A stretch of 64,000 nucleotides of DNA from Anadara kagoshimensis (taxonomy: Eukaryota; Mollusca; Bivalvia; Arcoida; Arcidae), in the NCBI GenBank assembly GCA_021292105.1, contig CM037869.1, positions 41,185,530 through 41,249,529 of the forward strand, written 5' to 3'. This document shows, in pieces, positions 13,820 through 44,461 of this stretch. The notes beneath the pieces were generated by a model. That model was given only the letters and a program-made list of their open reading frames with translations. It was not told the origin of the DNA and made no database searches. Every line of letters starts with the position of its first letter. The stretch's first letter is position 1. The translations under genes were made by a program, and so were the position numbers.

Positions 13820-16800
13820 CGTTTGAAGTAGCGTACACAGAGAAAATGCGTTTCCCCATCTAGGCCTTTTAACACGGGTAGATCTATCCAATTGCAACAT
13901 TTGGTGAAAATTTCAAGAACCCTAGAGGGTAGAACGGGTCTTACGAGAGCTCAGAAGGACCATGACCCCCCTTTTGATATGTGATTTCGTAAGGACCTGC
14001 TACGTTTGAAGTAGCGTACACAGAGAAAATGCGTTTCCCATCTAGGCCTTTTAACCAGGGTAGATCTATCCAATTGCAACATTTGGTGAAAATTTCAAGA
14101 ACCCTAGAGGGGTAGAACGGGTCTTACGAGAGCTCAGAAGGACCATACCCCCCTTTTGATATGTGATTTCGTAAGGACCTGCTACGTTTGAAGTAGCGTA
14201 CACAGAGAAAATGCGTTTCCCCATCTAGGCCTTTTAACCACGGGTAGATCTTCCAATTGCAACATTTGGTGAAAATTTCAAGAACCCTAGAGGGGTAGAA
14301 CGGGTCTTACGAGAGCTCAGAAGGACCATACCCCCCTTTTGATATGTGATTTCGTAAGGACTGCTACGTTTGAAGTAGCGTACACAGAGAAAATGCGTTT
14401 CCCATCTAGGCCTTTTAACCACGGGTAGATCTATCCAATTGCAACATTTGGTGAAAATTTCAGAACCCTAGAGGGGTAGAACGGGTCTTACGAGAGCTCA
14501 GAAGGACCATACCCCCCTTTTGATATGTGATTTCGTAAGGACCTGCTACGTTTGAAGTAGCGTACACAGAGAAAATGCGTTTCCCCATCTAGGCCTTTTA
14601 ACCACGGGTAGATCTATCCAATTGCAACATTTGGTGAAAATTTCAAGAACCCTAGAGGGGTAGAACGGGTCTTACGAGAGCTCAGAAGGACCATACCCCC
14701 CTTTTGATATGTGATTTCGTAAGGACCTGCTACGTTTGAAGTAGCGTACACAGAGAAAATGCGTTTCCCCATCTAGGCCTTTTAACCACGGGTAGATCTA
14801 TCCAATTGCAACATTTGGTGAAAATTTCAAGAACCCTAGAGGGGTAGAACGGGTCTTACGAGAGCTCAGAAGGACCATACCCCCTTTTGATATGTGATTT
14901 CGTAAGGACCTGCTACGTTTGAAGTAGCGTACACAGAGAAAATGCGTTTCCCCATCTAGGCCTTTTAACCACGGGTAGATCTATCCAATTGCAACATTTG
15001 GTGAAAATTTCAAGAACCCTAGAGGGGTAGAACGGGTCTTACGAGAGCTCAGAAGGACCATACCCCCCTTTTGATATGTGATTTCGTAAGGACCTGCTAC
15101 GTTTGAAGTAGCGTACACAGAGAAAATGCGTTTCCCCATCTAGGCCTTTTAACCACGGGTAGATCTATCCAATTGCAACATTTGGTGAAAATTTCAAGAA
15201 CCCTAGAGGGGTAGAACGGGTCTTACGAGAGCTCAGAAGGACCATACCCCCCTTTTGATATGTGATTTCGTAAGGACCTGCTACGTTTGAAGTAGCGTAC
15301 ACAGAGAAAATGCGTTTCCCCATCTAGGCCTTTTAACCACGGGTAGATCTATCCAATTGCAACATTTGGTGAAAATTTCAAGAACCCTAGAGGGTAGAAC
15401 GGGTCTTACGAGAGCTCAGAAGGACCATACCCCCCTTTTGATATGTGATTTCGTAAGGACCTGCTACGTTTGAAGTAGCGTACACAGAGAAAATGCGTTT
15501 CCCCATCTAGGCCTTTTAACCACGGGTAGATCTATCCAATTGCAACATTTGGTGAAAATTTCAAGAACCCTAGAGGGGTAGAACGGGTCTTACGAGAGCT
15601 CAGAAGGACCATACCCCCCTTTTGATATGTGATTTCGTAAGGACCTGCTACGTTTGAAGTAGCGTACACAGAGAAAATGCGTTTCCCCATCTAGGCCTTT
15701 TAACCACGGGTAGATCTATCCAATTGCAACATTTGGTGAAAATTTCAAGAACCCTAGAGGGGTAGAACGGGTCTTACGAGAGCTCAGAAGGACCATACCC
15801 CCCTTTTGATATGTGATTTCGTAAGGACCTGCTACGTTTGAAGTAGCGTACACAGAGAAAATGCGTTTCCCCATCTAGGCCTTTTAACCACGGGTAGATC
15901 TATCCAATTGCAACATTTGGTGAAAATTTCAAGAACCCTAGAGGGGTAGAACGGGTCTTACGAGAGCTCAGAAGGACCATACCCCCCTTTTGATATGTGA
16001 TTTCGTAAGGACCTGCTACGTTTGAAGTAGCGTACACAGAGAAAATGCGTTTCCCCATCTAGGCCTTTTAACCACGGGTAGATCTATCCAATTGCAACAT
16101 TTGGTGAAAATTTCAAGAACCCTAGAGGGGTAGAACGGGTCTTACGAGAGCTCAGAAGGACCATACCCCCCTTTTGATATGTGATTTCGTAAGGACCTGC
16201 TACGTTTGAAGTAGCGTACACAGAGAAAATGCGTTTCCCCATCTAGGCCTTTTAACCACGGGTAGATCTATCCAATTGCAACATTTGGTGAAAATTTCAA
16301 GAACCCTAGAGGGGTAGAACGGGTCTTACGAGAGCTCAGAAGGACCATACCCCCCTTTTGATATGTGATTTCGTAAGGACCTGCTACGTTTGAAGTAGCG
16401 TACACAGAGAAAATGCGTTTCCCCATCTAGGCCTTTTAACCACGGGTAGATCTATCCAATTGCAACATTTGGTGAAAATTTCAAGAACCCTAGAGGGGTA
16501 GAACGGGTCTTACGAGAGCTCAGAAGGACCATACCCCCCTTTTGATATGTGATTTCGTAAGGACCTGCTACGTTTGAAGTAGCGTACACAGAGAAAATGC
16601 GTTTCCCCATCTAGGCCTTTTAACCACGGGTAGATCTATCCAATTGCAACATTTGGTGAAAATTTCAAGAACCCTAGAGGGGTAGAACGGGTCTTACGAG
16701 AGCTCAGAAGGACCATACCCCCCTTTTGATATGTGATTTCGTAAGGACCTGCTACGTTTGAAGTAGCGTACACAGAGAAAATGCGTTTCCCCATCTAGGC

Positions 16801-19800
16801 CTTTTAACCACGGGTAGATCTATCCAATTGCAACATTTGGTGAAAATTTCAAGAACCCTAGAGGGGTAGAACGGGTCTTACGAGAGCTCAGAAGGACCAT
16901 ACCCCCCTTTTGATATGTGATTTCGTAAGGACCTGCTACGTTTGAAGTAGCGTACACAGAGAAAATGCGTTTCCCCATCTAGGCCTTTTAACCACGGGTA
17001 GATCTATCCAATTGCAACATTTGGTGAAAATTTCAAGAACCCTAGAGGGGTAGAACGGGTCTTACGAGAGCTCAGAAGGACCATACCCCCCTTTTGATAT
17101 GTGATTTCGTAAGGACCTGCTACGTTTGAAGTAGCGTACACAGAGAAAATGCGTTTCCCCATCTAGGCCTTTTAACCACGGGTAGATCTATCCAATTGCA
17201 ACATTTGGTGAAAATTTCAAGAACCCTAGAGGGGTAGAACGGGTCTTACGAGAGCTCAGAAGGACCATACCCCCCTTTTGATATGTGATTTCGTAAGGAC
17301 CTGCTACGTTTGAAGTAGCGTACACAGAGAAAATGCGTTTCCCCATCTAGGCCTTTTAACCACGGGTAGATCTATCCAATTGCAACATTTGGTGAAAATT
17401 TCAAGAACCCTAGAGGGGTAGAACGGGTCTTACGAGAGCTCAGAAGGACCATACCCCCCTTTTGATATGTGATTTCGTAAGGACCTGCTACGTTTGAAGT
17501 AGCGTACACAGAGAAAATGCGTTTCCCCATCTAGGCCTTTTAACCACGGGTAGATCTATCCAATTGCAACATTTGGTGAAAATTTCAAGAACCCTAGAGG
17601 GGTAGAACGGGTCTTACGAGAGCTCAGAAGGACCATACCCCCCTTTTGATATGTGATTTCGTAAGGACCTGCTACGTTTGAAGTAGCGTACACAGAGAAA
17701 ATGCGTTTCCCCATCTAGGCCTTTTAACCACGGGTAGATCTATCCAATTGCAACATTTGGTGAAAATTTCAAGAACCCTAGAGGGGTAGAACGGGTCTTA
17801 CGAGAGCTCAGAAGGACCATACCCCCCTTTTGATATGTGATTTCGTAAGGACCTGCTACGTTTGAAGTAGCGTACACAGAGAAAATGCGTTTCCCCATCT
17901 AGGCCTTTTAACCACGGGTAGATCTATCCAATTGCAACATTTGGTGAAAATTTCAAGAACCCTAGAGGGGTAGAACGGGTCTTACGAGAGCTCAGAAGGA
18001 CCATACCCCCCTTTTGATATGTGATTTCGTAAGGACCTGCTACGTTTGAAGTAGCGTACACAGAGAAAATGCGTTTCCCCATCTAGGCCTTTTAACCACG
18101 GGTAGATCTATCCAATTGCAACATTTGGTGAAAATTTCAAGAACCCTAGAGGGGTAGAACGGGTCTTACGAGAGCTCAGAAGGACCATACCCCCCTTTTG
18201 ATATGTGATTTCGTAAGGACCTGCTACGTTTGAAGTAGCGTACACAGAGAAAATGCGTTTCCCCATCTAGGCCTTTTAACCACGGGTAGATCTATCCAAT
18301 TGCAACATTTGGTGAAAATTTCAAGAACCCTAGAGGGGTAGAACGGGTCTTACGAGAGCTCAGAAGGACCATACCCCCCTTTTGATATGTGATTTCGTAA
18401 GGACCTGCTACGTTTGAAGTAGCGTACACAGAGAAAATGCGTTTCCCCATCTAGGCCTTTTAACCACGGGTAGATCTATCCAATTGCAACATTTGGTGAA
18501 AATTTCAAGAACCCTAGAGGGGTAGAACGGGTCTTACGAGAGCTCAGAAGGACCATACCCCCCTTTTGATATGTGATTTCGTAAGGACCTGCTACGTTTG
18601 AAGTAGCGTACACAGAGAAAATGCGTTTCCCCATCTAGGCCTTTTAACCACGGGTAGATCTATCCAATTGCAACATTTGGTGAAAATTTCAAGAACCCTA
18701 GAGGGGTAGAACGGGTCTTACGAGAGCTCAGAAGGACCATACCCCCCTTTTGATATGTGATTTCGTAAGGACCTGCTACGTTTGAAGTAGCGTACACAGA
18801 GAAAATGCGTTTCCCCATCTAGGCCTTTTAACCACGGGTAGATCTATCCAATTGCAACATTTGGTGAAAATTTCAAGAACCCTAGAGGGGTAGAACGGGT
18901 CTTACGAGAGCTCAGAAGGACCATACCCCCCTTTTGATATGTGATTTCGTAAGGACCTGCTACGTTTGAAGTAGCGTACACAGAGAAAATGCGTTTCCCC
19001 ATCTAGGCCTTTTAACCACGGGTAGATCTATCCAATTGCAACATTTGGTGAAAATTTCAAGAACCCTAGAGGGGTAGAACGGGTCTTACGAGAGCTCAGA
19101 AGGACCATACCCCCCTTTTGATATGTGATTTCGTAAGGACCTGCTACGTTTGAAGTAGCGTACACAGAGAAAATGCGTTTCCCCATCTAGGCCTTTTAAC
19201 CACGGGTAGATCTATCCAATTGCAACATTTGGTGAAAATTTCAAGAACCCTAGAGGGTAGAACGGGTCTTACGAGAGCTCAGAAGGACCATACCCCCCTT
19301 TTGATATGTGATTTCGTAAGGACCTGCTACGTTTGAAGTAGCGTACACAGAGAAAATGCGTTTCCCCATCTAGGCCTTTTAACCACGGGTAGATCTATCC
19401 AATTGCAACATTTGGTGAAAATTTCAAGAACCCTAGAGGGGTAGAACGGGTCTTACGAGAGCTCAGAAGGACCATACCCCCCTTTTGATATGTGATTTCG
19501 TAAGGACCTGCTACGTTTGAAGTAGCGTACACAGAGAAAATGCGTTTCCCCATCTAGGCCTTTTAACCACGGGTAGATCTATCCAATTGCAACATTTGGT
19601 GAAAATTTCAAGAACCCTAGAGGGGTAGAACGGGTCTTACGAGAGCTCAGAAGGACCATACCCCCCTTTTGATATGTGATTTCGTAAGGACCTGCTACGT
19701 TTGAAGTAGCGTACACAGAGAAAATGCGTTTCCCCATCTAGGCCTTTTAACCACGGGTAGATCTATCCAATTGCAACATTTGGTGAAAATTTCAAGAACC

Positions 19801-22800
19801 CTAGAGGGGTAGAACGGGTCTTACGAGAGCTCAGAAGGACCATACCCCCCTTTTGATATGTGATTTCGTAAGGACCTGCTACGTTTGAAGTAGCGTACAC
19901 AGAGAAAATGCGTTTCCCCATCTAGGCCTTTTAACCACGGGTAGATCTATCCAATTGCAACATTTGGTGAAAATTTCAAGAACCCTAGAGGGGTAGAACG
20001 GGTCTTACGAGAGCTCAGAAGGACCATACCCCCCTTTTGATATGTGATTTCGTAAGGACCTGCTACGTTTGAAGTAGCGTACACAGAGAAAATGCGTTTC
20101 CCCATCTAGGCCTTTTAACCACGGGTAGATCTATCCAATTGCAACATTTGGTGAAAATTTCAAGAACCCTAGAGGGGTAGAACGGGTCTTACGAGAGCTC
20201 AGAAGGACCATACCCCCCTTTTGATATGTGATTTCGTAAGGACCTGCTACGTTTGAAGTAGCGTACACAGAGAAAATGCGTTTCCCCATCTAGGCCTTTT
20301 AACCACGGGTAGATCTATCCAATTGCAACATTTGGTGAAAATTTCAAGAACCCTAGAGGGGTAGAACGGGTCTTACGAGAGCTCAGAAGGACCATACCCC
20401 CCTTTTGATATGTGATTTCGTAAGGACCTGCTACGTTTGAAGTAGCGTACACAGAGAAAATGCGTTTCCCCATCTAGGCCTTTTAACCACGGGTAGATCT
20501 ATCCAATTGCAACATTTGGTGAAAATTTCAAGAACCCTAGAGGGGTAGAACGGGTCTTACGAGAGCTCAGAAGGACCATACCCCCCTTTTGATATGTGAT
20601 TTCGTAAGGACCTGCTACGTTTGAAGTAGCGTACACAGAGAAAATGCGTTTCCCCATCTAGGCCTTTTAACCACGGGTAGATCTATCCAATTGCAACATT
20701 TGGTGAAAATTTCAAGAACCCTAGAGGGGTAGAACGGGTCTTACGAGAGCTCAGAAGGACCATACCCCCCTTTTGATATGTGATTTCGTAAGGACCTGCT
20801 ACGTTTGAAGTAGCGTACACAGAGAAAATGCGTTTCCCCATCTAGGCCTTTTAACCACGGGTAGATCTATCCAATTGCAACATTTGGTGAAAATTTCAAG
20901 AACCCTAGAGGGGTAGAACGGGTCTTACGAGAGCTCAGAAGGACCATACCCCCCTTTTGATATGTGATTTCGTAAGGACCTGCTACGTTTGAAGTAGCGT
21001 ACACAGAGAAAATGCGTTTCCCCATCTAGGCCTTTTAACCACGGGTAGATCTATCCAATTGCAACATTTGGTGAAAATTTCAAGAACCCTAGAGGGGTAG
21101 AACGGGTCTTACGAGAGCTCAGAAGGACCATACCCCCCTTTTGATATGTGATTTCGTAAGGACCTGCTACGTTTGAAGTAGCGTACACAGAGAAAATGCG
21201 TTTCCCCATCTAGGCCTTTTAACCACGGGTAGATCTATCCAATTGCAACATTTGGTGAAAATTTCAAGAACCCTAGAGGGGTAGAACGGGTCTTACGAGA
21301 GCTCAGAAGGACCATACCCCCCTTTTGATATGTGATTTCGTAAGGACCTGCTACGTTTGAAGTAGCGTACACAGAGAAAATGCGTTTCCCCATCTAGGCC
21401 TTTTAACCACGGGTAGATCTATCCAATTGCAACATTTGGTGAAAATTTCAAGAACCCTAGAGGGGTAGAACGGGTCTTACGAGAGCTCAGAAGGACCATA
21501 CCCCCCTTTTGATATGTGATTTCGTAAGGACCTGCTACGTTTGAAGTAGCGTACACAGAGAAAATGCGTTTCCCCATCTAGGCCTTTTAACCACGGGTAG
21601 ATCTATCCAATTGCAACATTTGGTGAAAATTTCAAGAACCCTAGAGGGGTAGAACGGGTCTTACGAGAGCTCAGAAGGACCATACCCCCCTTTTGATATG
21701 TGATTTCGTAAGGACCTGCTACGTTTGAAGTAGCGTACACAGAGAAAATGCGTTTCCCCATCTAGGCCTTTTAACCACGGGTAGATCTATCCAATTGCAA
21801 CATTTGGTGAAAATTTCAAGAACCCTAGAGGGGTAGAACGGGTCTTACGAGAGCTCAGAAGGACCATACCCCCCTTTTGATATGTGATTTCGTAAGGACC
21901 TGCTACGTTTGAAGTAGCGTACACAGAGAAAATGCGTTTCCCCATCTAGGCCTTTTAACCACGGGTAGATCTATCCAATTGCAACATTTGGTGAAAATTT
22001 CAAGAACCCTAGAGGGGTAGAACGGGTCTTACGAGAGCTCAGAAGGACCATACCCCCCTTTTGATATGTGATTTCGTAAGGACCTGCTACGTTTGAAGTA
22101 GCGTACACAGAGAAAATGCGTTTCCCCATCTAGGCCTTTTAACCACGGGTAGATCTATCCAATTGCAACATTTGGTGAAAATTTCAAGAACCCTAGAGGG
22201 GTAGAACGGGTCTTACGAGAGCTCAGAAGGACCATACCCCCCTTTTGATATGTGATTTCGTAAGGACCTGCTACGTTTGAAGTAGCGTACACAGAGAAAA
22301 TGCGTTTCCCCATCTAGGCCTTTTAACCACGGGTAGATCTATCCAATTGCAACATTTGGTGAAAATTTCAAGAACCCTAGAGGGGTAGAACGGGTCTTAC
22401 GAGAGCTCAGAAGGACCATACCCCCCTTTTGATATGTGATTTCGTAAGGACCTGCTACGTTTGAAGTAGCGTACACAGAGAAAATGCGTTTCCCCATCTA
22501 GGCCTTTTAACCACGGGTAGATCTATCCAATTGCAACATTTGGTGAAAATTTCAAGAACCCTAGAGGGGTAGAACGGGTCTTACGAGAGCTCAGAAGGAC
22601 CATACCCCCCTTTTGATATGTGATTTCGTAAGGACCTGCTACGTTTGAAGTAGCGTACACAGAGAAAATGCGTTTCCCCATCTAGGCCTTTTAACCACGG
22701 GTAGATCTATCCAATTGCAACATTTGGTGAAAATTTCAAGAACCCTAGAGGGGTAGAACGGGTCTTACGAGAGCTCAGAAGGACCATACCCCCCTTTTGA

Positions 22801-25800
22801 TATGTGATTTCGTAAGGACCTGCTACGTTTGAAGTAGCGTACACAGAGAAAATGCGTTTCCCCATCTAGGCCTTTTAACCACGGGTAGATCTATCCAATT
22901 GCAACATTTGGTGAAAATTTCAAGAACCCTAGAGGGGTAGAACGGGTCTTACGAGAGCTCAGAAGGACCATACCCCCCTTTTGATATGTGATTTCGTAAG
23001 GACCTGCTACGTTTGAAGTAGCGTACACAGAGAAAATGCGTTTCCCCATCTAGGCCTTTTAACCACGGGTAGATCTATCCAATTGCAACATTTGGTGAAA
23101 ATTTCAAGAACCCTAGAGGGGTAGAACGGGTCTTACGAGAGCTCAGAAGGACCATACCCCCCTTTTGATATGTGATTTCGTAAGGACCTGCTACGTTTGA
23201 AGTAGCGTACACAGAGAAAATGCGTTTCCCCATCTAGGCCTTTTAACCACGGGTAGATCTATCCAATTGCAACATTTGGTGAAAATTTCAAGAACCCTAG
23301 AGGGGTAGAACGGGTCTTACGAGAGCTCAGAAGGACCATACCCCCCTTTTGATATGTGATTTCGTAAGGACCTGCTACGTTTGAAGTAGCGTACACAGAG
23401 AAAATGCGTTTCCCCATCTAGGCCTTTTAACCACGGGTAGATCTATCCAATTGCAACATTTGGTGAAAATTTCAAGAACCCTAGAGGGGTAGAACGGGTC
23501 TTACGAGAGCTCAGAAGGACCATACCCCCCTTTTGATATGTGATTTCGTAAGGACCTGCTACGTTTGAAGTAGCGTACACAGAGAAAATGCGTTTCCCCA
23601 TCTAGGCCTTTTAACCACGGGTAGATCTATCCAATTGCAACATTTGGTGAAAATTTCAAGAACCCTAGAGGGGTAGAACGGGTCTTACGAGAGCTCAGAA
23701 GGACCATACCCCCCTTTTGATATGTGATTTCGTAAGGACCTGCTACGTTTGAAGTAGCGTACACAGAGAAAATGCGTTTCCCCATCTAGGCCTTTTAACC
23801 ACGGGTAGATCTATCCAATTGCAACATTTGGTGAAAATTTCAAGAACCCTAGAGGGGTAGAACGGGTCTTACGAGAGCTCAGAAGGACCATACCCCCCTT
23901 TTGATATGTGATTTCGTAAGGACCTGCTACGTTTGAAGTAGCGTACACAGAGAAAATGCGTTTCCCCATCTAGGCCTTTTAACCACGGGTAGATCTATCC
24001 AATTGCAACATTTGGTGAAAATTTCAAGAACCCTAGAGGGGTAGAACGGGTCTTACGAGAGCTCAGAAGGACCATACCCCCCTTTTGATATGTGATTTCG
24101 TAAGGACCTGCTACGTTTGAAGTAGCGTACACAGAGAAAATGCGTTTCCCCATCTAGGCCTTTTAACCACGGGTAGATCTATCCAATTGCAACATTTGGT
24201 GAAAATTTCAAGAACCCTAGAGGGGTAGAACGGGTCTTACGAGAGCTCAGAAGGACCATACCCCCCTTTTGATATGTGATTTCGTAAGGACCTGCTACGT
24301 TTGAAGTAGCGTACACAGAGAAAATGCGTTTCCCCATCTAGGCCTTTTAACCACGGGTAGATCTATCCAATTGCAACATTTGGTGAAAATTTCAAGAACC
24401 CTAGAGGGGTAGAACGGGTCTTACGAGAGCTCAGAAGGACCATACCCCCCTTTTGATATGTGATTTCGTAAGGACCTGCTACGTTTGAAGTAGCGTACAC
24501 AGAGAAAATGCGTTTCCCCATCTAGGCCTTTTAACCACGGGTAGATCTATCCAATTGCAACATTTGGTGAAAATTTCAAGAACCCTAGAGGGGTAGAACG
24601 GGTCTTACGAGAGCTCAGAAGGACCATACCCCCCTTTTGATATGTGATTTCGTAAGGACCTGCTACGTTTGAAGTAGCGTACACAGAGAAAATGCGTTTC
24701 CCCATCTAGGCCTTTTAACCACGGGTAGATCTATCCAATTGCAACATTTGGTGAAAATTTCAAGAACCCTAGAGGGGTAGAACGGGTCTTACGAGAGCTC
24801 AGAAGGACCATACCCCCCTTTTGATATGTGATTTCGTAAGGACCTGCTACGTTTGAAGTAGCGTACACAGAGAAAATGCGTTTCCCCATCTAGGCCTTTT
24901 AACCACGGGTAGATCTATCCAATTGCAACATTTGGTGAAAATTTCAAGAACCCTAGAGGGGTAGAACGGGTCTTACGAGAGCTCAGAAGGACCATACCCC
25001 CCTTTTGATATGTGATTTCGTAAGGACCTGCTACGTTTGAAGTAGCGTACACAGAGAAAATGCGTTTCCCCATCTAGGCCTTTTAACCACGGGTAGATCT
25101 ATCCAATTGCAACATTTGGTGAAAATTTCAAGAACCCTAGAGGGGTAGAACGGGTCTTACGAGAGCTCAGAAGGACCATACCCCCCTTTTGATATGTGAT
25201 TTCGTAAGGACCTGCTACGTTTGAAGTAGCGTACACAGAGAAAATGCGTTTCCCCATCTAGGCCTTTTAACCACGGGTAGATCTATCCAATTGCAACATT
25301 TGGTGAAAATTTCAAGAACCCTAGAGGGGTAGAACGGGTCTTACGAGAGCTCAGAAGGACCATACCCCCCTTTTGATATGTGATTTCGTAAGGACCTGCT
25401 ACGTTTGAAGTAGCGTACACAGAGAAAATGCGTTTCCCCATCTAGGCCTTTTAACCACGGGTAGATCTATCCAATTGCAACATTTGGTGAAAATTTCAAG
25501 AACCCTAGAGGGGTAGAACGGGTCTTACGAGAGCTCAGAAGGACCATACCCCCCTTTTGATATGTGATTTCGTAAGGACCTGCTACGTTTGAAGTAGCGT
25601 ACACAGAGAAAATGCGTTTCCCCATCTAGGCCTTTTAACCACGGGTAGATCTATCCAATTGCAACATTTGGTGAAAATTTCAAGAACCCTAGAGGGGTAG
25701 AACGGGTCTTACGAGAGCTCAGAAGGACCATACCCCCCTTTTGATATGTGATTTCGTAAGGACCTGCTACGTTTGAAGTAGCGTACACAGAGAAAATGCG

Positions 25801-29448: not shown

Positions 29449-30963
29449 TATTTTGGAACCCTACATATAAATAAGGTCCATTTTTGGTGTTTAAAAAGCT
29501 CGTTTAAAATACTACAAAATATGGGGAAAAATAAACCCTTAACAGATCGTTTTCGAGATAAATGACGTTCCGTCAAAGGTACAAAATAGCACTATTAACA
29601 TGTCGCATGAGACCATCATGAGCTGGCCGTAGATTCGTACACACACAACACAATTTACCGCTAGTTATATGTTCAAGTACGTTTCGCTGCATCTTCCTTT
29701 CTAATGTTTTTGATTTAATCATCATTTTCCGGTTGTTAGGGCAACAAGTCGTTGCTATGGCAATTTTCTTGATTATTTTTGAAGTTTAGACCGTGGACGA
29801 AAATACGAAACTCTTGTATGATACCTGAAGTGGCGTACATGGAGTAAAATAAGCCCTCGGTCTTTAGGCTTGTTAGGTAATCATATTACTACGCGAATAT
29901 CATATCACCGTATTCCAAACGTAATTGCCTTTCTAAATGAAAATATCATGGCTCTGTTTCCATACATTTGTAATTTATTTTTTTTATTAAAAAATCTTTG
30001 AACGAAGCACATGGCCGCATATTGTGTTACGCACTATTTGGGTCCCTTGCACGGAATTACCTAAAACTGGAGCGCACGGAAATATAATCATATTAAAAAC
30101 CCAACGTTGGTTTGCCAATATTCTTAGCCTACACTTTTTGAGGACTCTCTATGGAGTCTTTGTATGGAGTAAATTTCAAAGCTATTCATGAGAAATAAGC
30201 AACTTATGTAAAGAATGTATTAGTGAAATATTCCCTTAAAATAGTATTCCAAGGAATACTAATTCACTGAATTTTCTTGTTACGTTTCTTTTTCATCTTT
30301 TTTCACAAAAAATCATATGACCTTTGGTCATTCAGATGATGCGATATTTGACGTTTTAAGGATCTGAAACTTGTAATTTGTTCAGAGTGAAGGGTCAAGA
30401 TCATGACTTAATTCATTTATTTCGTGTTTTGTTTGATTTTACATATTTGATATACATTTGTCTATAACTTTTTTATGTTTAGAAGCAATGATTTTTAACA
30501 CGAAGACAAAGTCGAACTCGACAATAAAAACTGTATTGTTGATAAACTTTTAAAACTTTATGTGAGCTTAGGCCATTTTTAGTTTTCATGTTTTCATAGC
30601 ATGGCATTCAAAACGGAGTAAATGTTAAAGCTCTGAATTAGTTTTGAAATTGTGAGCTTTTTCCTCTATATTTGTTACATTTCAATTTTGAGTTTTTACT
30701 TACACTGCTCTTTTACCATTGATCAAGTTTAAAAGCCAAGGTACTGACCTCATTTGAAAATTAATCCTGAAAATGCTAAATCTGGACTATATTTGTTGCA
30801 ATGGTCTTCATAATCATAATAGAGTTTTATATCTTTATGAGTTATAATTATGAATATATTTGAAGCCGATTTTAATTTAGATTTTAATTTTTGTAATTTT
30901 AAATAGACATTTTTGGTCATGTGTAATTCCATGACTAAGATATTGATTTCGTTTGTATAGTAT

Positions 30964-30998
<35 letters not shown>

Positions 30999-33009
30999 TT
31001 ATTTATTTAATTATTTATTTATTTTGGAAAAGCCGAGACTTCGAAGCTTTTTGGTAAATTCAAAAGAAGTAAGCTAATGGAATTTAGTCGAGTTTGCAAA
31101 TAAGCATATGATAGACGCCAGGGTGGATGACGCATTGCAAAAAATGAGGTCAAAGGTCACTGAATGGAAAAAAAATTAATTATATCCTGGACATAATGTG
31201 CCCTTATCTTGCAAAAAACATATAACTTTTATTTGCAATAATTTTGAGATAAATAGAACATATTGTATAGTGATGATTGTTTTTAAAACTGCATGACGTT
31301 AAATAAACAAAATTTTAAGATAAATATTGCCAAAATCTTGTCCAAATACATGTAGAATAATTAATTTTTGAAACATAAATTTGTGAAGATGTAAGAAAAG
31401 ATCATATCCACCAAGTTTACTATGCCAGTCTGCAAAACATTATATACATGTATATAGAAATTAATCAAAGTACTGAGAGTACTCTAGGTAGAGATTTAGC
31501 TTTTAGCTATATATAAAATATTAATATATGTTATGTTCTGAATGTTACAATAAAACAGAAGTAAAATAAATATTTTCATCAGATAATAATATTACTAAGG
31601 ACATATGTTTAATCGATATGAATGTGATGTTTTCAATGGCGTTTAAGTAATATTTAGTGCTAAGATGCTGTTGATTTTGTGACAATTGGATTACTCTGAT
31701 TATCAAAATGGACATAGCGAACACTTATACACTTTTTAACGTAGTAATATAAAGGAGAAAAATTTGCAATTGAAAACATTTTTAATATCCTATGCAAATA
31801 AGAATGTAAAACAATAAATGATTCAACAGACAAACAAGACCAGATAAATACATATCGGCACCACTGAGTATAAAATCCCGAGATTTGGACGGGAATCACC
31901 AGTAGTTTAAAGCAAAATCCGCTTTTTTATTAAAAAGTATATAGATGATAGGACAAAAACGAGGAATAAATAAATAAGGAACTATTATACCTTCTTTTGA
32001 TGTTAGTTTCCTTAATGGCTGCCATTCATGTTTAAATAATTTTTGAAATGTGTAGATCATCACTAGGGTTTGGTACTGAAGATCATAAAAAGGTCAAAGG
32101 TCAAATGAGTGAATTATATCATGAAATATACATATAAACTTTCTAATACTAGAAAATTCGGCATATTTATGAGTAATTACCTCAAAATAATATAAAACTA
32201 AGTTTTAGAAGTATATATATGTATCAAACGAAATCGACCAGAATTTGCACTTGAGGTAGACCAAAGTATAGTGGATGAGTTAAATATTTTATTTTCAGTG
32301 TTGATGGCATATATTGTTTAACAATCTTGATGATATTAAAATATATATTAGTAATATTTGTTTTTATAATGCTTTGGGATTTTGGTTTAGACATGGATTG
32401 GTATGTTTGTTATGATAACTTCATATTTATGATATGATGCAATGCTGAAAGCTATTATTCTTTTTCACTTTTTCTCGATTCTTGGAGGTTTTGACAGTTC
32501 TAAAGCAACTTTTTCCTTACTACTTTCCAAAAGAAAGTTTATGTTTGAAATTGAAATTGTTGGAATTGTTCATTTTCTTACAGACATGACAATATCATTA
32601 TGATCATGTACTTGTGTTTTGACAAATATATTAACATTGATAATGATATGTAATGATTCCTTAAACTGTCTCAGTTTTTCAGCACTAGAAATCAGCCAAA
32701 ATAGGCGCTTAGTAAGACCACTCGTGCATTTTGTATGTACTAATCTGTAAAAATTGGTGTAATGATGTTTTGGTGTTTATCTCAAAATGTGGTTGATAAC
32801 TTTTCGTGTCAATAACTTTAAGGCAGGAAGATATAACTTTTTCGCCTAAAAAAGAAAACCAAAACATTTTCTACAACATTAGGGCCCTATATCTTTTTAA
32901 ATGTAGACTATAAAATTGCATCAACTGTGTTTGCTAAACGAATTAAAACAGTCCTGTATGGTTTCGGTGATTCAATAAATAAATTGTTTTAAAGCATTAA
33001 ATTGAGTAG
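29449..33009. other. Spacer between satellite arrays, left part
   Basis: AT-rich, non-coding. I see none of the TIR-A, TIR-B or SINE copies that fill the outer flanks. It contains an (ATTT)n microsatellite (30959-31024) and perfect AGGTCAAAGGTCA direct repeats at 31147-31159 and 32091-32103 in loosely similar surroundings, possibly two old copies of one repeat. Short frames at 30750-30932 and 31660-31899 are not convincing genes. Confidence 0.55.
30959..31024. repeat. (ATTT)n microsatellite
   Basis: About sixteen tetranucleotide repeats with two interruptions near 31000-31012. Confidence 0.95.
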
Positions 33010-34340
33010 ATTACTTCTCTGTCTGTTCCGGTTTAAAAGCTATTTTCGATAAAAACAAGTTATTTAGATGGGGTAAACGGGGTTGTGGTGATAAACTTAG
33101 AACTGACAGAAAAATAGAATGGAATTGAAAAGGAAATTTCAAACTTTTGGGTATAAAATATAAATTGGGAGATTAATTTGAGTCCTTTAAGAAGCTTCTG
33201 TTCTGAATGATTTGTCATTCTTAAGTGCCAGATCTTCCAAACGACATAATAAATGAAATAGATTGATGTTCTCTTTCATATGGAACATCAAATTGAATAA
33301 AATAAAACGAGGTGTATTGGTTTTTTGAATTATGATGAAGGTAGTTTAAAGGTATCCCATATCAAGTTCTTTTGTCAAAAGATTTCATGGGTGCAGAAAA
33401 TCCGCTCTGCCATTTTACCATGGGAATGTCTGCTTCTGGATGATTTCGAAGAGTTCGAGGGTGCTAATGTTTTTAAAGATGGGTTTGCTTCAATCACACC
33501 GTTGATTAATAAATTCTGGTGATCGGTGATCACTGCATGGGCCAATTTACCAAATAATTACATCACAAACACAAATAACGTTATGTCACAATGTCTCTGG
33601 TAAAATCCTAACATTAAAACAAATAAAACTTTTGGAAAATGTGGGCAAAAGAAAATATTAATTTTATAAAGGTTTTAACAAATGATGAAGGAAATATTAT
33701 GTCTTATAATGAGTTTACAGCTAAGTTTGATTTTAATATTAATAATCTAAATTATTACACCTTGATTGATACAATTCCGGAAATCTGGAAAAGTGCAATC
33801 CAGCTACAAGAAAATCCGCTTAGAGAAGTCAGAAATAGTTTTATAACTAAATTGAAATAAAGGAAAATAGTTTCCAAAATGTTTTACATATATATCTAAA
33901 AGAAATTAGAAATTTTGCACAAAAATAAGAGATTGGATGTGTTGATTAATTATGTTTTCTTGTCACCGATGAAACAAAAAATCAAGATTTCCAGTATAAA
34001 ATTAAACACAATATTAATTTTATAAGCAGCCGAACAATGAAATGCAAGCTTCTTGAAACTGAACTATGCAGTTTTTGTTGGAAAGTTAAAGAAACTGAAC
34101 AACATTTATTTTTAGAATGTCAGTATGTAAAAAATATTTAAACATATTTTTCGATCAAGATAAAAATCAAATCCCACGTGATTATAGAAAATGAAGTAAA
34201 TAATGTTTATTTGGAAAGAAGCACAAAGTAATCATTTTTGGCATTTTCATTTATGCATTTTAATAATTAAATAGTATATCCATATATGTAGAATGTCCAA
34301 TACATTTCCCCAATACAATATTGCAATAGAAAAGATGTGT
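33010..34340 (+). pseudogene. Decayed LINE, C-terminal part of reverse-transcriptase ORF
   Basis: Pieces in changing plus-strand frames read like the C-terminal part of a non-LTR retrotransposon polyprotein. They include FIWNIKLNKIKRGVL (about 33274), then NYDEGSLKVSHIKFF (33325 on), then a thumb-like segment with FTAKFDFNINNLNYY (33639-33860). Near 34070-34130 a Cys/His motif follows, C-x2-C spaced to H-x4-C, as in the terminal zinc knuckle of many LINEs. Frameshifts and stops (for example TGA in VLVF*IMM near 33328) make it non-functional. The catalytic FADD-type motif and the endonuclease are not seen, consistent with 5' truncation. The clade is undetermined. Confidence 0.72.
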
Positions 34341-37300
34341 CTCTACAAACAGATCGAAATGTATTCCATATATCAGTATTCCACGACAAGGGCACACAAA
34401 ATTAGAATAAACTGGGAACATGTTGAGGTAGGCCCATACATTGAAAACATATTTTGAAATTTTAATATGTTGTACATGGGCATTAACCACTCAACATGCC
34501 AAAATTTCAAGGTAGGTATTCAGAATACTTAAGAAAATTCTAAAGCGCCATCTGGTGGACATTTTCACGACATAAATGGTCAAAAATAATAAGCTTTAAT
34601 ACTTTTTGCCATGCTTAGAATCCAAAAGAGTCTTGCATTTAAATTTAACATTATGTCATAAAGATAATTTGGACTAATTGATTTTACTTCCGGACATGCG
34701 GTATTTTTCTACTGCGCCGCCTATCAAGAAAGAACATTAAAATTTCGGAAAACTAAAAGTAACACCCTTTCGTTATTTTGATGTTTTATAAAAAATACGA
34801 TCGCTGATTTTAACATGTGTTGCGCATGAATATATAAGTTTAGAAAAAATAGGGGTAGTCAAGCTACTTTTTTCATAAAATTGCATTAAAATCAAAACCA
34901 AGATTAGAAACCTTATTCCTTACATTAGAACTCACCATTAATGTCCTAGGATACAATTTTAAACTCAATGTTTTTCGTTTGGTGTTAACAAATAAGCAAA
35001 AACAGTGATAATGAGCTATTTGGCTTTGCAAAACAAAACGAATTTGAAATACCATATTATCTGTACCCCTAGCAACCCTTACCAATACCAACGAATTAAA
35101 TTGGAAAGAGGAGTCGTATACATTGATGAAGGGTTCTTGATTCTAGGCCGCTGAAATGAAAAGCAAATACAAGAGCATAGTCAAAATTTGACACTGAGAA
35201 AAATTATTATGAAGTATGTTTATTGAACAACCGTGCGTTTGCGTCGTACTATTTTTATTTGAATAACCCTTCTCCCAAAAAAGTCACATAAAGCAGCGAT
35301 ATAAAACACAGTACCTCAAATTTTAAACGACGTTCTCAAATCTTTCAAATATTTAGATTTGCGCTCTCAAAAGTGTAGATCTTCCTTATTTCCGTTAAAT
35401 TATACATTTTGTTCTTTAAAAATAATACACAACATTGGTGTTGTGAATTATAAGCTTTTGTGAATGCAGATAATTATTCTAAATGATACGCATTAGAGCG
35501 TCCCGCCATAATTCGGTAGGTGCCGAACACCATTTATTCGTGACGTCATAGGTAGAAAGACGTAAAATCGGAGAGTTTGTCCTTACGCACAAAACGACGA
35601 CGTCACCATGGTATGGATATACCTTAAAAGATTGTGGGATTTATAAGTTGTTATAATAATAGATGTGTGTATAAATTGTTTTTGTTAATGCCTTTTAATT
35701 CTGTTCTGTAACATATACAGAGAAATAAAAATATTTAGAGCACTGTATAAGGGTTTTTACACTCGCTAGTGTGTTTTTATTTTGTCAATTTCTGAATACG
35801 GTGTTTTTATACTCACTGAATAAGGTGTTTGATTTTGATACTCGCTAAATAATGTTTTTTAGTTTTGATACTAACTGAACAAGGTGTCTTATTATAAAAC
35901 GGAATACAAAAGTAAGTCATCCGGTTTCATTGAAATAACGATATTCCTTATACAATCTGAAATCATTTTAATTATCTTTATTAATTAAACACTAGATATT
36001 TAACATTTTTATTACATTTATTCTGATGATCACATTACTAGTAAGTGAAACTCAAGTCAAGCATTAGCTAGAACAAAATGTCGCCTTAGTAATTTAGCTA
36101 TAAAAATATGTAGTGTAATTAATGTGCGATTACTTTCCGAGTTTGTTCAGTGGAATATGACATTCAATTATTTATCTTACAAAAACTCGTCTGTAGTTTA
36201 CGTTACATAATAAACATCAATAGTGATGTATTGTAATTCGTCAGTCAGTTATTTAGTTATTTTAAGGTGTACCCAGTAATTCAAACAAGTGCGCGTCTAG
36301 TTGTTTGCAGAACAATTACACTAGGATTAAGATTTATTTATTTGAAATGTTTTGCAACTTTTACCCAATTGAGATTTAATGTTAAATCTGTTCTTTCTCT
36401 GAATTATAATTAGACTCTAATGGTTGTGAAAAAGTGTCATTGAGAAATTAGGATATACGTTAGACAAAAGCATTGTATTCAAGACATCAGTATTCAGTTA
36501 CATGTACACGTTAACGCTTAATATTGACAGTTCTTTTTCAAATATATGTGATTTTGGCACTTTCAAAGCGGGTGTTATATAAACAAAATGTTAAACTACA
36601 ACCACAATTTCCTTATTTCCGGTACTCATATTGCTTGTTTTATATAAGCATTCGAATGAAATGATCGTTAGAATTACACTTATTTGAACCTTTGACACCA
36701 AAATGACTTAACATCGTAACATCTGGATTGGAATCCACTCTAAAACCACTATATGTATCCCAAGCAAAAATTTCAGAATGAATTGTCAGTTATTGACCAT
36801 TGACAAAAATATCATCAAATGTAAATTTAAGCATAAAAATAGAGTTGTCAGCCAGACTATTACATATTATTGTTTTGCAATGACTGTTTTAAAGATACAG
36901 TGCCAAAATGAGAAAATGCATTCGTCACTCGGTTTAGTTTTGAAATATTAATACATTGAGAATTTAACATTACATCACATACTTTTAATAATGTGTTTCC
37001 TCATACGGTGTGGCTGAATGATTTAGGGGTAAAAAACAATTATATCTTCTCAATGAATTTATTTGAAATTTGTCATACATCATTAAATAACATAGTTGTA
37101 TATAGTAACCCACTATAGGTATAGTTCATATGTGTAATATTGTTGTGAAAATAATCCTGGAGTCGTTTGTGTACATCCAACACCCAGATTTAACCTATCA
37201 TTGACGTCATTGTCCTAACATCTTGACAGAATAGACACTTATCAATGAAATTTAAAACATCAGATTTTGCATATAAATTACGGTTTTAGAATTTACTCTC

Positions 37301-37814
37301 ATATTAATTATTTACCAAATAAATTTAACTTACAAAATTAAATTAATTCCATAAAACCACATTTAAAATAACGGACAACATTTCTACACTTAAAATTGTT
37401 TAAACGTACTTGGAAACGTTAAATTCATATCATTTAAACAGACGATTATGAGTATATGTATCTATCGCTTAAATAAACATGTTTTATATTAGTTGTTTTA
37501 TTATAATTATGGTTACAGAATAAGTAAATGGTGATGTTGTATTTGCCGTTTAGAACTCATAGTCAACCTAATACATAGAGCACTTTCAGTACTTTGATTA
37601 ATTCTGTAAACTTTTTATATGTGCCATAATGCGTTTGAAAAGGTACACCTGATGCATAATTATGCATTTTATGGTTAAAATAAATAAACATTGTATTTAG
37701 TTTTCAACTTGTTACATTTTGTAATAAATGTTGGGAATATGATTTCCAACATTCCATGTAATTAAAAACAGAAAACTAGTTATCATAGTAATTCCGAGCT
37801 CTTGTTATGTTATG
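34341..37814. other. Spacer between satellite arrays, right part
   Basis: AT-rich non-coding DNA. A GC-richer patch at 35500-35610 carries TGACGTCA (35541-35548) and GACGTCAC (35599-35606) and looks promoter-like, but no gene follows. At 35750-35890 a loose repeat of about 40 bp (ACTCGCTAAATAA and GGTGTTT) occurs four times. Another TGACGTCA is at 37202-37209. Small frames at 34260-34490 and 34873-35091 have no recognisable features. Confidence 0.5.
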
Positions 37815-40800
37815 CAAATGTTGCAATTGGATAGATCTACCCGTGGTTAAAAGCCCTAGATGGGGAAACGCATTTTCTCTGTGTACGCTACTTCAAACGT
37901 AGCAGGTCCTTACGAAATCACATATCAAAAGGGGGGTATGGTCCTTCTGAGCTCTCGTAAGACCCGTTCTACCCCTCTAGGGTTCTTGAAATTTTCACCA
38001 AATGTTGCAATTGGATAGATCTACCCGTGGTTAAAAGGCCTAGATGGGGAAACGCATTTCTCTGTGTACGCTACTTCAAACGTAGCAGGTCCTTACGAAA
38101 TCACATATCAAAAGGGGGTATGGTCCTTCTGAGCTCTCGTAAGACCCGTTCTACCCCTCTAGGGTTCTTGAAATTTTCACCAAATGTTGCAATTGGATAG
38201 ATCTACCCGTGGTTAAAAGGCCTAGATGGGGAAACGCATTTTCTCTGTGTACGCTACTTCAAACGTAGCAGGTCCTTACGAAATCACATATCAAAAGGGG
38301 GGTATGGTCCTTCTGAGCTCTCGTAAGACCCGTTCTACCCCTCTAGGGTTCTTGAAATTTTCACCAAATGTTGCAATTGGATAGATCTACCCGTGGTTAA
38401 AAGGCCTAGATGGGGAAACGCATTTTCTCTGTGTACGCTACTTCAAACGTAGCAGGTCCTTACGAAATCACATATCAAAAGGGGGGTATGGTCCTTCTGA
38501 GCTCTCGTAAGACCCGTTCTACCCCTCTAGGGTTCTTGAAATTTTCACCAAATGTTGCAATTGGATAGATCTACCCGTGGTTAAAAGGCCTAGATGGGGA
38601 AACGCATTTTCTCTGTGTACGCTACTTCAAACGTAGCAGGTCCTTACGAAATCACATATCAAAAGGGGGGTATGGTCCTTCTGAGCTCTCGTAAGACCCG
38701 TTCTACCCCTCTAGGGTTCTTGAAATTTTCACCAAATGTTGCAATTGGATAGATCTACCCGTGGTTAAAAGGCCTAGATGGGGAAACGCATTTTCTCTGT
38801 GTACGCTACTTCAAACGTAGCAGGTCCTTACGAAATCATATATCAAAAGGGGGGTATGGTCCTTCTGAGCTCTCGTAAGACCCGTTCTACCCCTCTAGGG
38901 TTCTTGAAATTTTCACCAAATGTTGCAATTGGATAGATCTACCCGTGGTTAAAAGGCCTAGATGGGGAAACGCATTTCTCTGTGTACGCTACTTCAAACG
39001 TAGCAGGTCCTTACGAAATCACATATCAAAAGGGGGGTATGGTCCTTCTGAGCTCTCGTAAGACCCGTTCTACCCCTCTAGGGTTCTTGAAATTTTCACC
39101 AAATGTTGCAATTGGATAGATCTACCCGTGGTTAAAAGGCCTAGATGGGGAAACGCATTTCTCTGTGTACGCTACTTCAAACGTAGCAGGTCCTTACGAA
39201 ATCACATATCAAAAGGGGGGTATGGTCCTTCTGAGCTCTCGTAAGACCCGTTCTACCCCTCTAGGGTTCTTGAAATTTTCACCAAATGTTGCAATTGGAT
39301 AGATCTACCCGTGGTTAAAAGGCCTAGATGGGGAAACGCATTTCTCTGTGTACGCTACTTCAAACGTAGCAGGTCCTTACGAAATCACATATCAAAAGGG
39401 GGGTATGGTCCTTCTGAGCTCTCGTAAGACCCGTTCTACCCCTCTAGGGTTCTTGAAATTTTCACCAAATGTTGCAATTGGATAGATCTACCCGTGGTTA
39501 AAAGGCCTAGATGGGGAAACGCATTTTCTCTGTGTACGCTACTTCAAACGTAGCAGGTCCTTACGAAATCACATATCAAAAGGGGGTATGGTCCTTCTGA
39601 GCTCTCGTAAGACCCGTTCTACCCCTCTAGGGTTCTTGAAATTTTCACCAAATGTTGCAATTGGATAGATCTACCCGTGGTTAAAAGGCCTAGATGGGGA
39701 AACGCATTTTCTCTGTGTACGCTACTTCAAACGTAGCAGGTCCTTACGAAATCACATATCAAAAGGGGGGTATGGTCCTTCTGAGCTCTCGTAAGACCCG
39801 TTCTACCCCTCTAGGGTTCTTGAAATTTTCACAAATGTTGCAATTGGATAGATCTACCCGTGGTTAAAAGGCCTAGATGGGGAAACGCATTTTCTCTGTG
39901 TACGCTACTTCAAACGTAGCAGGTCCTTACGAAATCACATATCAAAAGGGGGGTATGGTCCTTCTGAGCTCTCGTAAGACCCGTTCTACCCCTCTAGGGT
40001 TCTTGAAATTTTCACCAAATGTTGCAATTGGATAGATCTACCCGTGGTTAAAAGGCCTAGATGGGGAAACGCATTTTCTCTGTGTACGCTACTTCAAACG
40101 TAGCAGGTCCTTACGAAATCACATATCAAAGGGGGGTATGGTCCTTCTGAGCTCTCGTAAGACCCGTTCTACCCCTCTAGGGTTCTTGAAATTTTCACCA
40201 AATGTTGCAATTGGATAGATCTACCCGTGGTTAAAAGGCCTAGATGGGGAAACGCATTTTCTCTGTGTACGCCACTTCAAACGTAGCAGGTCCTTACGAA
40301 ATCACATATCAAAAGGGGGGTATGGTCCTTCTGAGCTCTCGTAAGACCCGTTCTACCCCTCTAGGTTCTTGAAATTTTCACCAAATGTTGCAATTGGATA
40401 GATCTACCCGTGGTTAAAAGGCCTAGATGGGGAAACGCATTTTCTCTGTGTACGCACTTCAAACGTAGCAGGTCCTTACGAAATCACATATCAAAAGGGG
40501 GGTATGGTCCTTCTGAGCTCTCGTAAGACCCGTTCTACCCCTCTAGGGTTCTTGAAATTTTCACCAAATGTTGCAATTGGATAGATCTACCCGTGGTTAA
40601 AAGGCCTAGATGGGGAAACGCATTTTCTCTGTGTACGCTACTTCAAACGTAGCAGGTCCTTACGAAATCACATATCAAAAGGGGGGTATGGTCCTTCTGA
40701 GCTCTCGTAAGACCCGTTCTACCCCTCTAGGGTTCTTGAAATTTTCACCAAATGTTGCAATTGGATAGATCTACCCGTGGTTAAAAGGCCTAGATGGGGA

Positions 40801-43800
40801 AACGCATTTTCTCTGTGTACGCTACTTCAAACGTAGCAGGTCCTTACGAAATCACATATCAAAAGGGGGTATGGTCCTTCTGAGCTCTCGTAAGACCCGT
40901 TCTACCCCTCTAGGGTTCTTGAAATTTTCACCAAATGTTGCAATTGGATAGATCTACCCGTGGTTAAAAGGCCTAGATGGGGAAACGCATTTTCTCTGTG
41001 TACGCTACTTCAAACGTAGCAGGTCCTTACGAAATCACATATCAAAAGGGGGGTATGGTCCTTCTGAGCTCTCGTAAGACCCGTTCTACCCCTCTAGGGT
41101 TCTTGAAATTTTCACCAAATGTTGCAATTGGATAGATCTACCCGTGGTTAAAAGGCCTAGATGGGGAAACGCATTTTCTCTGTGTACGCTACTTAACGTA
41201 GCAGGTCCTTACGAAATCATATCAAAAGGGGGGTATGGTCCTTCTGAGCTCTCGTAAGACCCGTTCTACCCCTCTAGGGTTCTTGAAATTTTCACCAAAT
41301 GTTGCAATTGGATAGATCTACCGTGGTTAAAAGGCCTAGATGGGGAAACGCATTTTCTCTGTGTACGCCACTTCAAACGTAGCAGGTCCTTACGAAATCA
41401 CATATCAAAAGGGGGGTATGGTCCTTCTGAGCTCTCGTAAGACCCGTTCTACCCCTCTAGGGTTCTTGAAATTTTACCAAATGTTGCAATTGGATAGATC
41501 TACCCGTGGTTAAAAGGCCTAGATGGGGAAACGCATATCTCTGTGTACGCCACTTTGAACGTAGCAGGTCCTTACGAAATCACATATCAAAAGGGGGGTA
41601 TGGTCCTTCTGAGCTCTCGTAAGACCCGTTCTACCCCTCTAGGGTTCTTGAAATTTTCACCAAATGTTGCAATTGGATAGTCTACCTGTGGTTAAAAGGC
41701 CTAGATGGGGAAACGCATTTTCTCTGTGTACGCTACTTCAAACGTAGCAGGTCCTTACGAAATCATATATCAAAAGGGGGGTATGGTCCTTCTGAGCTCT
41801 CGTAAGACCCGTTCTACCCCTCTAGGGTTCTTGAAATTTTCACCAAATGTTGCAATTGGATAGATCTACCCGTGGTTAAAAGGCCTAGATGGGGAAACGC
41901 ATTTTCTCTGTGTACGCTACTTCAAACGTAGCAGGTCCTTACGAAATCAATATCAAAAGGGGGGTATGGTCCTTCTGAGCTCTCGTAAGACCCGTTCTAC
42001 CCCTCTAGGGTTCTTAAATTTTCACCAAATGTTGCAATTGATAGATCTACCGTGGTTAAAAGGCCTAGATGGGGAAACGCATTTCTCTGTGTACGCCACT
42101 TTGAACGTAGCAGGTCCTTACGAAATCACATATCAAAAGGGGGTATGGTCCTTCTGAGCTCTGTAAGACCCGTTCTACCCCTCTATGGTTCTTGAAATTT
42201 TCACCAAATGTTGCAATTGATAGATCTACCGTGGTTAAAAGGCCTAGATGGGGAAACGCATTTTCTCTGTGTACGCTACTTCAAACGTAGCAGGTCCTTA
42301 CGAAATCATATCAAAAGGGGGGTATGGTCCTTCTGAGCTCTCGTAAGACCCGTTCTACCCCTCTAGGGTTCTTGAAATTTTCACAAATGTTGCAATTGGA
42401 TAGATCTACCTGTGGTTAAAAGGCTAGATGGGGAAACGCATATTCTCTGTGTACGCCACTTTGAACGTAGCAGGTCTTACGAAATCACATATCAAAAGGG
42501 GGGTATGGTCCTTCTGAGCTCTCGTAAGACCCGTTCTACCCCTCTAGGGTTCTTGAAATTTTCACCAAATGTTGCAATTGATAGATCTACCTGTGGTTGA
42601 AAGGCCTAGATGGGGAAACGCATTTCTCTGTGTACGCCACTTTGAACGTAGCAGGTCTTACGAAATCACATATCAAAAGGGGGGTATGGTCCTTCTGAGC
42701 TCTCGTAAGACCCGTTCTACCCCTCTAGGGTTCTTGAAATTTTCACCAAATGTTGCAATTGGATAGGTCTACCTGTGGTTAAAAGGCCTAGATGGGGAAA
42801 CGCATTTTCTCTGTGTACGCTACTTTGAACGTAGCAGGTCCTTACGAAATCATATATCAAAAGGGGGGTATGGTCCTTCTGAGCTCTCGTAAGACCCGTT
42901 CTACCCCTCTAGGGTTCTTGAAATTTTCACCAAATGTTGCAATTGGATAGGTCTACCCGTGGTTAAAAGGCCTAGATGGGGAAACGCATTTTCTCTGTGT
43001 ACGCTACTTCAAACGTAGCAGGTCCTTACGAAATCATATATCAAAAGGGGGGTATGGTCCTTCTGAGCTCTCGTAAGACCCGTTCTACCCCTCTAGGGTT
43101 CTTAAAATTTTTACCAAATGTTGCAATTGGATCGATCTACCTGTGGTTAAAAGGCCTAGATGGGGAAACGCATTTCTCTGTGTACGCCACTTTGAACGTA
43201 GCAGGTCTTACGAAATCACATATCAAAAGGGGGTATGGTCCTTCTGAGCTCTCGTAAGACCCGTTCTACCCCTCTAGGGTTCTTGAAATTTTCACCAAAT
43301 GTTGCAATTGGATAGGTCTACCCGTGGTTAAAAGGCCTAGATGGGGAAACGCATTTTCTCTGTGTACGCTACTTCAAACGTAGCAGGTCCTTACGAAATC
43401 ATATATCAAAAGGGGGGTATGGTCCTTCTGAGCTCTTGTAAGACCCGTTCTACCCCTCTAGGGTTCTTAAAATTTTCACCAAATGTTGCAATTTGATAGA
43501 TCTACCTGTGGTTAAAAGGCCTAGATGGGGAAACGCATATTCTCTGTGTACGCCACTTTGAACGTAGCAGGTCTTACGAAATCACATATCAAAAGAGGGG
43601 GTATGGTCCTTCTGAGCTCTCGTAAGACCCGTTCTACCCCTCTAGGGTTCTTGAAATTTTTACCAAATGTTGCAATTGGATAGATCTACCTGTGGTTAAA
43701 AGCCCTAGATGGGGAAACGCATATTCTCTGTGTACGCCACTTTGAACGTAGCAGGTCCTTACGAAATCACATATCAAAAGGGGGGTATGGTCCTTCTGAG

Positions 43801-44461
43801 CTCTCGTAAGACCCGTTCTACCCCTCTAGGGTTCTTGAAATTTTCACCAAATGTTGCAATTGGATAGGTCTACCCGTGGTTAAAAGGCCTAGATGGGGAA
43901 ACGCATTTTCTCTGTGTACGCTACTTCAAACGTAGCAGGTCCTTACGAAATCATATATCAAAAGGGGGGTATGGTCCTTCTGAGCTCTCGTAAGACCCGT
44001 TCTACCCCTCTAGGGTTCTTAAAATTTTTACCAAATGTTGCAATTGGATAGATCTACCTGTGGTTAAAAGGCCTAGATGGGGAAACGCATTTTCTCTGTG
44101 TACGCCACTTTGAACGTAGCAGGTCTTTACGAAATCACATATCAAAAGGGGGGTATGGTCCTTCTGAGCTCTCGTAAGACCCGTTCTACCCCTCTAGGGT
44201 TCTTGAAATTTTCACCAAATGTTGCAATTGGATAGATCTACCTGTGGTTAAAAGGCCTAGATGGGGAAACGCATTTTCTCTGTGTACGCCACTTTGAACG
44301 TAGCAGGTCTTTACGAAATCACATATCAAAAGGGGGGTATGGTCCTTCTGAGCTCTCGTAAGACCCGTTCTACCCCTCTAGGGTTCTTGAAATTTTCACC
44401 AAATGTTGCAATTGGATAGATCTACCCGTGGTTAAAAGGCCTAGATGGGGAAACTCATTTT
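37815..44461 (-). repeat. 184-bp satellite array 2, inverted, about 36 units
   Basis: Same unit as array 1 but in the opposite orientation (CGCTACTTCAAACGTAGCAG on the plus strand). The left third is near the common type. From about 41.3 kb rightward the units carry more changes (CGCCACTTTGAACG, CTACCTGTGG, AATCATATATC, one-base losses), and two subtypes alternate at 42.7-44.4 kb. The array starts at CAAATGTTGCAATTGG and ends inside a unit at AAACTCATTTT. The short open frames along it (for example 42976-43257) come from indels and are not genes. Confidence 0.97.

Follow-up and report, generated by a model that had tools for sequence, protein, structure and literature searches.

Arrays built of two opposed subarrays predominate in the satellites TmSat1 and TmSat2 of Tribolium madens, according to the account in PMC13081366, and inversions across alpha-satellite arrays have been reported in orangutan and macaque (PMC11062924). 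Tandem units can also reside on the inverted ends of an element, as described for Tetris of Drosophila virilis, whose ends hold repeats of ~220 bp that also grow into arrays of up to 66 copies (PMC4079207). Among bivalves the oysters are the best studied, and most descriptions of their satellites are of short arrays in scattered positions; in the Pacific oyster such arrays are reported to be scattered over the genome, with many of them carried by mobile elements (PMC8268682, PMC7492417). In a 64-kb window of the genome of Anadara kagoshimensis (the whole stretch of DNA analysed here), a preliminary description recorded two arrays of one 184-bp satellite that face each other across a spacer, and it called such an arrangement unusual for a tandem family. 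In view of the opposed subarrays published in T. madens and in primates (PMC13081366, PMC11062924), this statement was too strong. A literature search returned no published 184-bp satellite monomer in bivalves by title, nor did any ark-clam nuclear satellite appear by title among the literature matches listed, and neither result is proof of absence.

Tandem Repeats Finder places the plus-strand array, which unit cutting resolves into 85 units of 184 bp, at 13820-29448 (period 184, 85.0 copies, 99% matches) and the minus-strand array at 37815-44461 (period 184, 36.3 copies, 97% matches), in agreement to the base with the positions first given. Unit-by-unit cutting further confirms that the two are one satellite in opposite orientation, the minus array being the reverse complement of the plus unit. 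With this many head-to-tail monomer copies (85.0 and 36.3) both arrays have the structure of satellite DNA, and they stand as opposed subarrays within one locus in the manner of a macro-dyad, subject to the doubt over the minus array discussed below. The spacer edges were said to fall at different points of the unit, and this is the case, with unit phases of 184/1 at the left edge (29448) and 85/86 at the right (37815); the outer edge of the minus array (44461) has phase 23/24, and all three assembled array edges differ.

Outside the arrays the unit has no match at E 1 when compared by BLAST with the array-masked window. The best unit match within the spacer is at chance level, being reached by 10 of 40 dinucleotide shuffles under strict scoring and by 12 of 40 under lax scoring, and a look-alike of the unit at 29826-29850, roughly twice the unit length away from the array edge, was rejected on the same ground (10 of 40 spacer shuffles). 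A minus-strand match to the unit within 5101-5400 has a score of 29, and strict shuffles of 5001-12819 reach at most 28 (0 of 40); under lax scoring 27 of 40 shuffles of this region reach its best unit score, which leaves the match unsupported, and it is taken as chance among many stretches. The shuffle controls for unit matches covered the spacer, 5001-12819 and 44462-50000.

The sole run of N in the window is a scaffold gap of exactly 1000 N at 12820-13819. The plus array begins at the base directly after this gap, and no satellite stands at the end of the sequence that precedes it. On its left the plus array therefore stops at a contig end and at no observed array border, and its length of 15.6 kb is a minimum. 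For the same reason the left neighbour of the plus array, which contains an LRR gene (6171-8594) with distant protein matches only and an aldo-keto reductase gene (586-1566), is joined to it by scaffolding only. The best named matches of the aldo-keto reductase are from bivalves and other molluscs, the closest seen by identity being a protein of Tegillarca granosa (124 of 157 aligned residues). From 13820 to 64000 the sequence is free of gaps, so that both arrays and the spacer lie within one contig.

Several other repeats occur on either side of the arrays. Just before the gap is an inverted pair at 11871-12018 and 12559-12707, with arms of ~149 bp that are 94% alike and 540 bp apart, and a second, shorter inverted pair lies at 12500-12546 and 12732-12778; a hairpin from the pre-gap inverted pair may have helped to end the contig. 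A 77-bp tandem array at 10971-11756 shares sequence with a dispersed repeat of ~180 bp, copies of which are found at ~37-187, 3071-3252, 5099-5280, 9641-9815, 12122-12282 and 63195-63378. Just right of the minus array, at 44707-44945, there is a short stretch with inverted ends, recognised by eye, like ATATACAGTACAGAC..GTCGAAAGTTTAACACT, and a 249-bp tandem array at 57941-59121 contains a motif similar to this stretch and is possibly a mobile element turned tandem. A further short dispersed repeat is present in both orientations (46372-46457, 47984-48092, 53051-53258, 61002-61205 and 62468-62570), and near these copies, at ~47.8 kb, inspection by eye suggests a tRNA-derived SINE head; the order Arcida has been described as SINE-rich (PMC10294476). 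ARAGORN identifies a tRNA-Leu (TAA) of 100 bases at 55842-55941, and five copies of a 36-bp repeat at 51114-51294 are open in one minus-strand frame, inside a frame of 104 codons.

The two arrays differ in how their units vary. Of the 85 plus-array units, 77 are letter-for-letter consensus, and there are 0 substitutions; the remaining eight units account for 12 one-base deletions and 1 insertion. The four units adjacent to the gap hold 9 of these 13 changes, as would be expected of a thinly covered contig end, and the nine units adjoining the spacer are all identical to the consensus. The minus array, cut into 37 pieces of which two are incomplete, contains 70 substitutions, 40 deletions and 1 insertion, counts that leave out the missing parts of the two end units. 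Measured against the consensus, mean substitution is 2.7% in units 1-8 at the outer end (42832-44300) and 1.5% in units 9-17, and it falls to 0.06% in units 18-35 on the spacer side, corresponding to 2 substitutions in 18 units, where 13 one-base deletions are found as well. By position, the inner part of the minus array (37815-40283) consists of ~13.5 near-plus-consensus units with 3 substitutions and several one-base deletions, the middle part (40284-43748; units 4-22) mixes variant and consensus bases, and the outer part (43749-44461; units 0-3) is without deletions. Among the array ends seen, only the far right one (44461) is diverged, and neither spacer edge is. The units at the spacer edges are thus more alike than those of the outer end, a comparison open to polishing bias, since polishing could have pulled the plus-array units towards the majority and so produced part of their uniformity. 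A higher-order repeat in minus units 1-17 was considered and is not claimed: variants are shared most often at lags 3 (28/68) and 6 (24/53), with a chance of 0.21 over all seven lags.

The spacer (29449-37814; 8,366 bp, GC 0.294) stands out from its surroundings in composition and in repeat cover. Its two halves have GC contents of 0.297 and 0.290, compared with 0.327-0.385 in 18 equally sized, overlapping windows of the flanks, and matches elsewhere in the window cover 1.4% of it, compared with 12.4-24.5% in 11 overlapping flank windows of spacer length; its CpG ratio of 0.87 is like that of the flanks (0.88 and 0.99). Low GC together with low repeat cover would suit a segment of outside origin. 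Stop-to-stop frames in the spacer reach 89 codons at most. Of the 34 spacer pieces with at least 50 codons, 6 were searched against Pfam, and 4 of the 6 were without match. A piece at 33950-34138 on the plus strand resembles zf-RVT, the zinc-binding domain of reverse transcriptases (E 1.4e-4; 22.9 bits, under the Pfam cut-off of 27.5), and is probably the relic of a non-LTR retrotransposon; a Sina_TRAF match of the piece at 34876-35142 (E 0.018; 15.9 bits against a cut-off of 24.8) was taken as chance. A 32-bp inverted pair (31459-31490 and 37572-37603) is 91% alike, with its members 6.1 kb apart and away from the spacer ends, and scores 45.5 bits compared with at most 37.4 in 100 shuffles; it may be what is left of the termini of an old element, or a short repeat that is present twice. 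Altogether the spacer looks like unremarkable, decayed intergenic DNA, AT-rich and compositionally unlike the local flanks.

How did two arrays of one satellite come to face each other across such a segment? The strand change rules out that a mobile element merely inserted itself into an array: an inserted spacer would have kept one array orientation, and the facing arrays call either for an inversion or for a second array. Of the four readings put forward in the preliminary description, the near-identity of the units on the spacer side together with the diverged outer end of the minus array favours inversion within a once-continuous array, and this reading comes out best. In its simple one-breakpoint form, however, it predicts that one spacer edge should be an old, diverged array border, and neither edge is diverged; the simplest single inversion therefore needs an added second event or the capture of filler DNA. 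The explanation we favour, tentatively and with a confidence that falls somewhat short of even, is breakage with inversion in a single satellite locus, a segment having stayed where the break occurred. The locus would have been broken within its uniform core, and the plus array (at least 15.6 kb) would have been flipped relative to the remainder, which would now form the minus array. The 8.4-kb AT-rich spacer at the break would be captured filler, or else a neighbouring stretch carried along by the inversion. Both spacer edges would then be rearrangement points, and the right end of the minus array at 44461 would be an old natural array border; alternatively, an original border may since have been made uniform. 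An origin elsewhere would agree with the capture of filler but conflict with the simplest inversion, which makes the spacer a local neighbour. Against breakage and inversion it counts that the left edge of the plus array falls in the gap and that the ancestral order has to be deduced from this one copy; we infer from it the former unity of both arrays, the breakage and the order in which breakage took place.

A serious rival, which we nevertheless consider unlikely, is that two arrays of the same family were seeded separately 8.4 kb apart and face each other by chance, if scattering of the oyster type also holds here. What makes it serious is the combination of that scattering, short scattered arrays being the pattern described in the Pacific oyster (PMC8268682, PMC7492417), with the fact that the other arrays in the window (77-bp and 249-bp) share sequence with dispersed elements. 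Separate seeding would also account for three array edges of unrelated phase with no common flank found, and any pair of arrays has a one-in-two chance of opposite orientation. However, the minus array is graded, passing from diverged units to plus-type ones towards the spacer, and is not uniform like a fresh insertion, so that recent exchange between the arrays would be needed in addition. Moreover, the 85 units of the plus array exceed the 9 to 48 monomers given in PMC8268682 for the longest arrays of "the rest" of the inspected oyster satellites, exceptions aside.

A second kind of doubt concerns the assembly itself. Of the 40 one-base deletions in the minus array, 16 fall on the 11 sites with recurrent variants (binomial p 4e-10, a value that ignores homopolymer context); by a hand count of the same list, 8 of the 11 deletions outside homopolymer runs do so, and of the 12 deletions in the plus array none (0/12) falls on those sites. 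The deletions on variant sites span minus units 4 to 22 (~40.3-43.7 kb), where plus-type and diverged units meet. Because the deletions are concentrated on variant sites we read this part of the minus array as a blended consensus, in which reads of unlike units were averaged, and the uniformity of the plus array may likewise be in part a product of polishing. The blend may come either from the averaging of a natural gradient or from the false overlap of two different arrays. The latter would make the locus in part an assembly artefact: the spacer and two plus-type arms would be real, and the diverged outer array with the right flank would have been falsely joined to them through near-identical units. 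Such a false join, which we regard as rather unlikely, would explain why the deletions lie in the meeting zone of the two unit types as if two kinds of reads had been averaged, and the gap beside the plus array indicates that the assembly had already failed once at this repeat. On the other hand, ordinary long reads can span an array of 6.6 kb, the same blending would follow if the unit types formed a natural gradient and reads were misplaced by a few units, and the inverted pair around the spacer would remain in any case. The misjoin envisaged in the preliminary description may be present, but the suspect place is inside the minus array at ~40.3-43.7 kb and not at the spacer junctions, which are sharp and border non-repeated DNA; the weakest link is the one across the minus array. 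A palindrome made by read-through of a hairpin adapter was rejected, as the spacer is not mirrored. In practice, anyone who uses the assembly should trust neither the array lengths nor the link across the minus array.

Very improbable, and the least likely of these readings because its inner-domain feature was looked for and not found, is a giant foldback-type element whose long inverted terminal repeats of tandem units would be the arrays and whose middle domain would be the spacer: its outline is that of Tetris in D. virilis (PMC4079207), with inverted tandem-repeat arms around a middle, and the 32-bp inverted pair in the spacer is stronger than in 100 of 100 shuffles, but that pair lies away from the spacer ends, the spacer is without a long open frame, the outer minus units are diverged and unmatched to the plus array, the two spacer edges show no inner-domain repeat or other mutual similarity beyond the arrays (among the 25 longest of 86 inverted pairs and in an array-masked self-BLAST at E 1e-3), and no inverted outer flanking domains emerge at E 1e-5 when the final kb ahead of the gap is compared with the first kb beyond 44461, the left array edge being unassembled. 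The initial suggestion of a transposon with satellite at both ends is likewise not supported, no inverted pair being found at the spacer edges beyond the arrays or at the outer flanks, of which the true left one is missing. It would be just as much of a long shot to propose that the locus exemplifies a recurring module ~10 times the size of Tetris, with many spacers between facing 184-bp arms that are homogenised by exchange across the spacer and with spacers that flip or move as units.

If breakage and inversion is the right explanation, a satellite locus has here been broken within its uniform core, with clean boundaries, and the sequence gradient would identify the outer end as predating the break. 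Facing repeat arms are substrates for inversion of the DNA that they enclose, and they can fold back. Here the two arms might pair as a hairpin, and recombination between them might turn the spacer round. We found no function for the arrays or the spacer and claim none. Rfam gave no match in the 64-kb window at curated cut-offs, and three plus units likewise had no match up to E 5. As to the centromere-proximal structure that the preliminary description had also suggested, neither array contains a site like the CENP-B box at up to 2 mismatches, and the 55 such sites in the window are fewer than in every shuffle. Viral contigs scanned with the start of the unit gave no match.

Set beside the systems described in bivalves, the locus resembles the Cg_HINE Helentrons of the Pacific oyster in that a tandem array of short monomers lies between unique flanks (PMC7492417). 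In Cg_HINE, however, the arrays of one cluster share left and right flanks according to that report. For the two arrays here, comparison of their right flanks gave no match, and a shared right flank of ~60 bp with a palindrome was not seen. A 12-bp stem lies 62-88 bp past the minus array and none of at least 8 bp lies within 152 bp past the plus array, against a spacer background of 1.55 stems of at least 10 bp per kb. With Tetris and its TIR-220 repeats the locus shares, in outline, a unique middle between inverted arms that consist of tandem units of ~200 bp (PMC4079207); Tetris as described there differs in having flanking and inner domains and target-site duplications of 8-9 bp, and its inner domain has no counterpart here.

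The primate alpha-satellite cases likewise show a change of strand within a satellite locus, which is there taken as an inversion polymorphism; they differ in being centromeric, with one example of 3.2 Mb, and in having been checked with ultra-long reads (PMC11062924). The macro-dyads of T. madens consist, as here, of two multi-kb opposed subarrays of one satellite, but they are described as meeting at conserved inversion sites that are composed of subunits of the satellite itself (PMC13081366), whereas the subarrays of the present locus are separated by 8,366 bp in which the satellite unit is matched at chance level only. They are also reported in thousands of copies that are likely (peri)centromeric (PMC13081366), compared with the one instance known here. 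An unrelated spacer of 8.4 kb and its standing, so far, as an isolated case are what distinguish this locus from the known opposed satellites.
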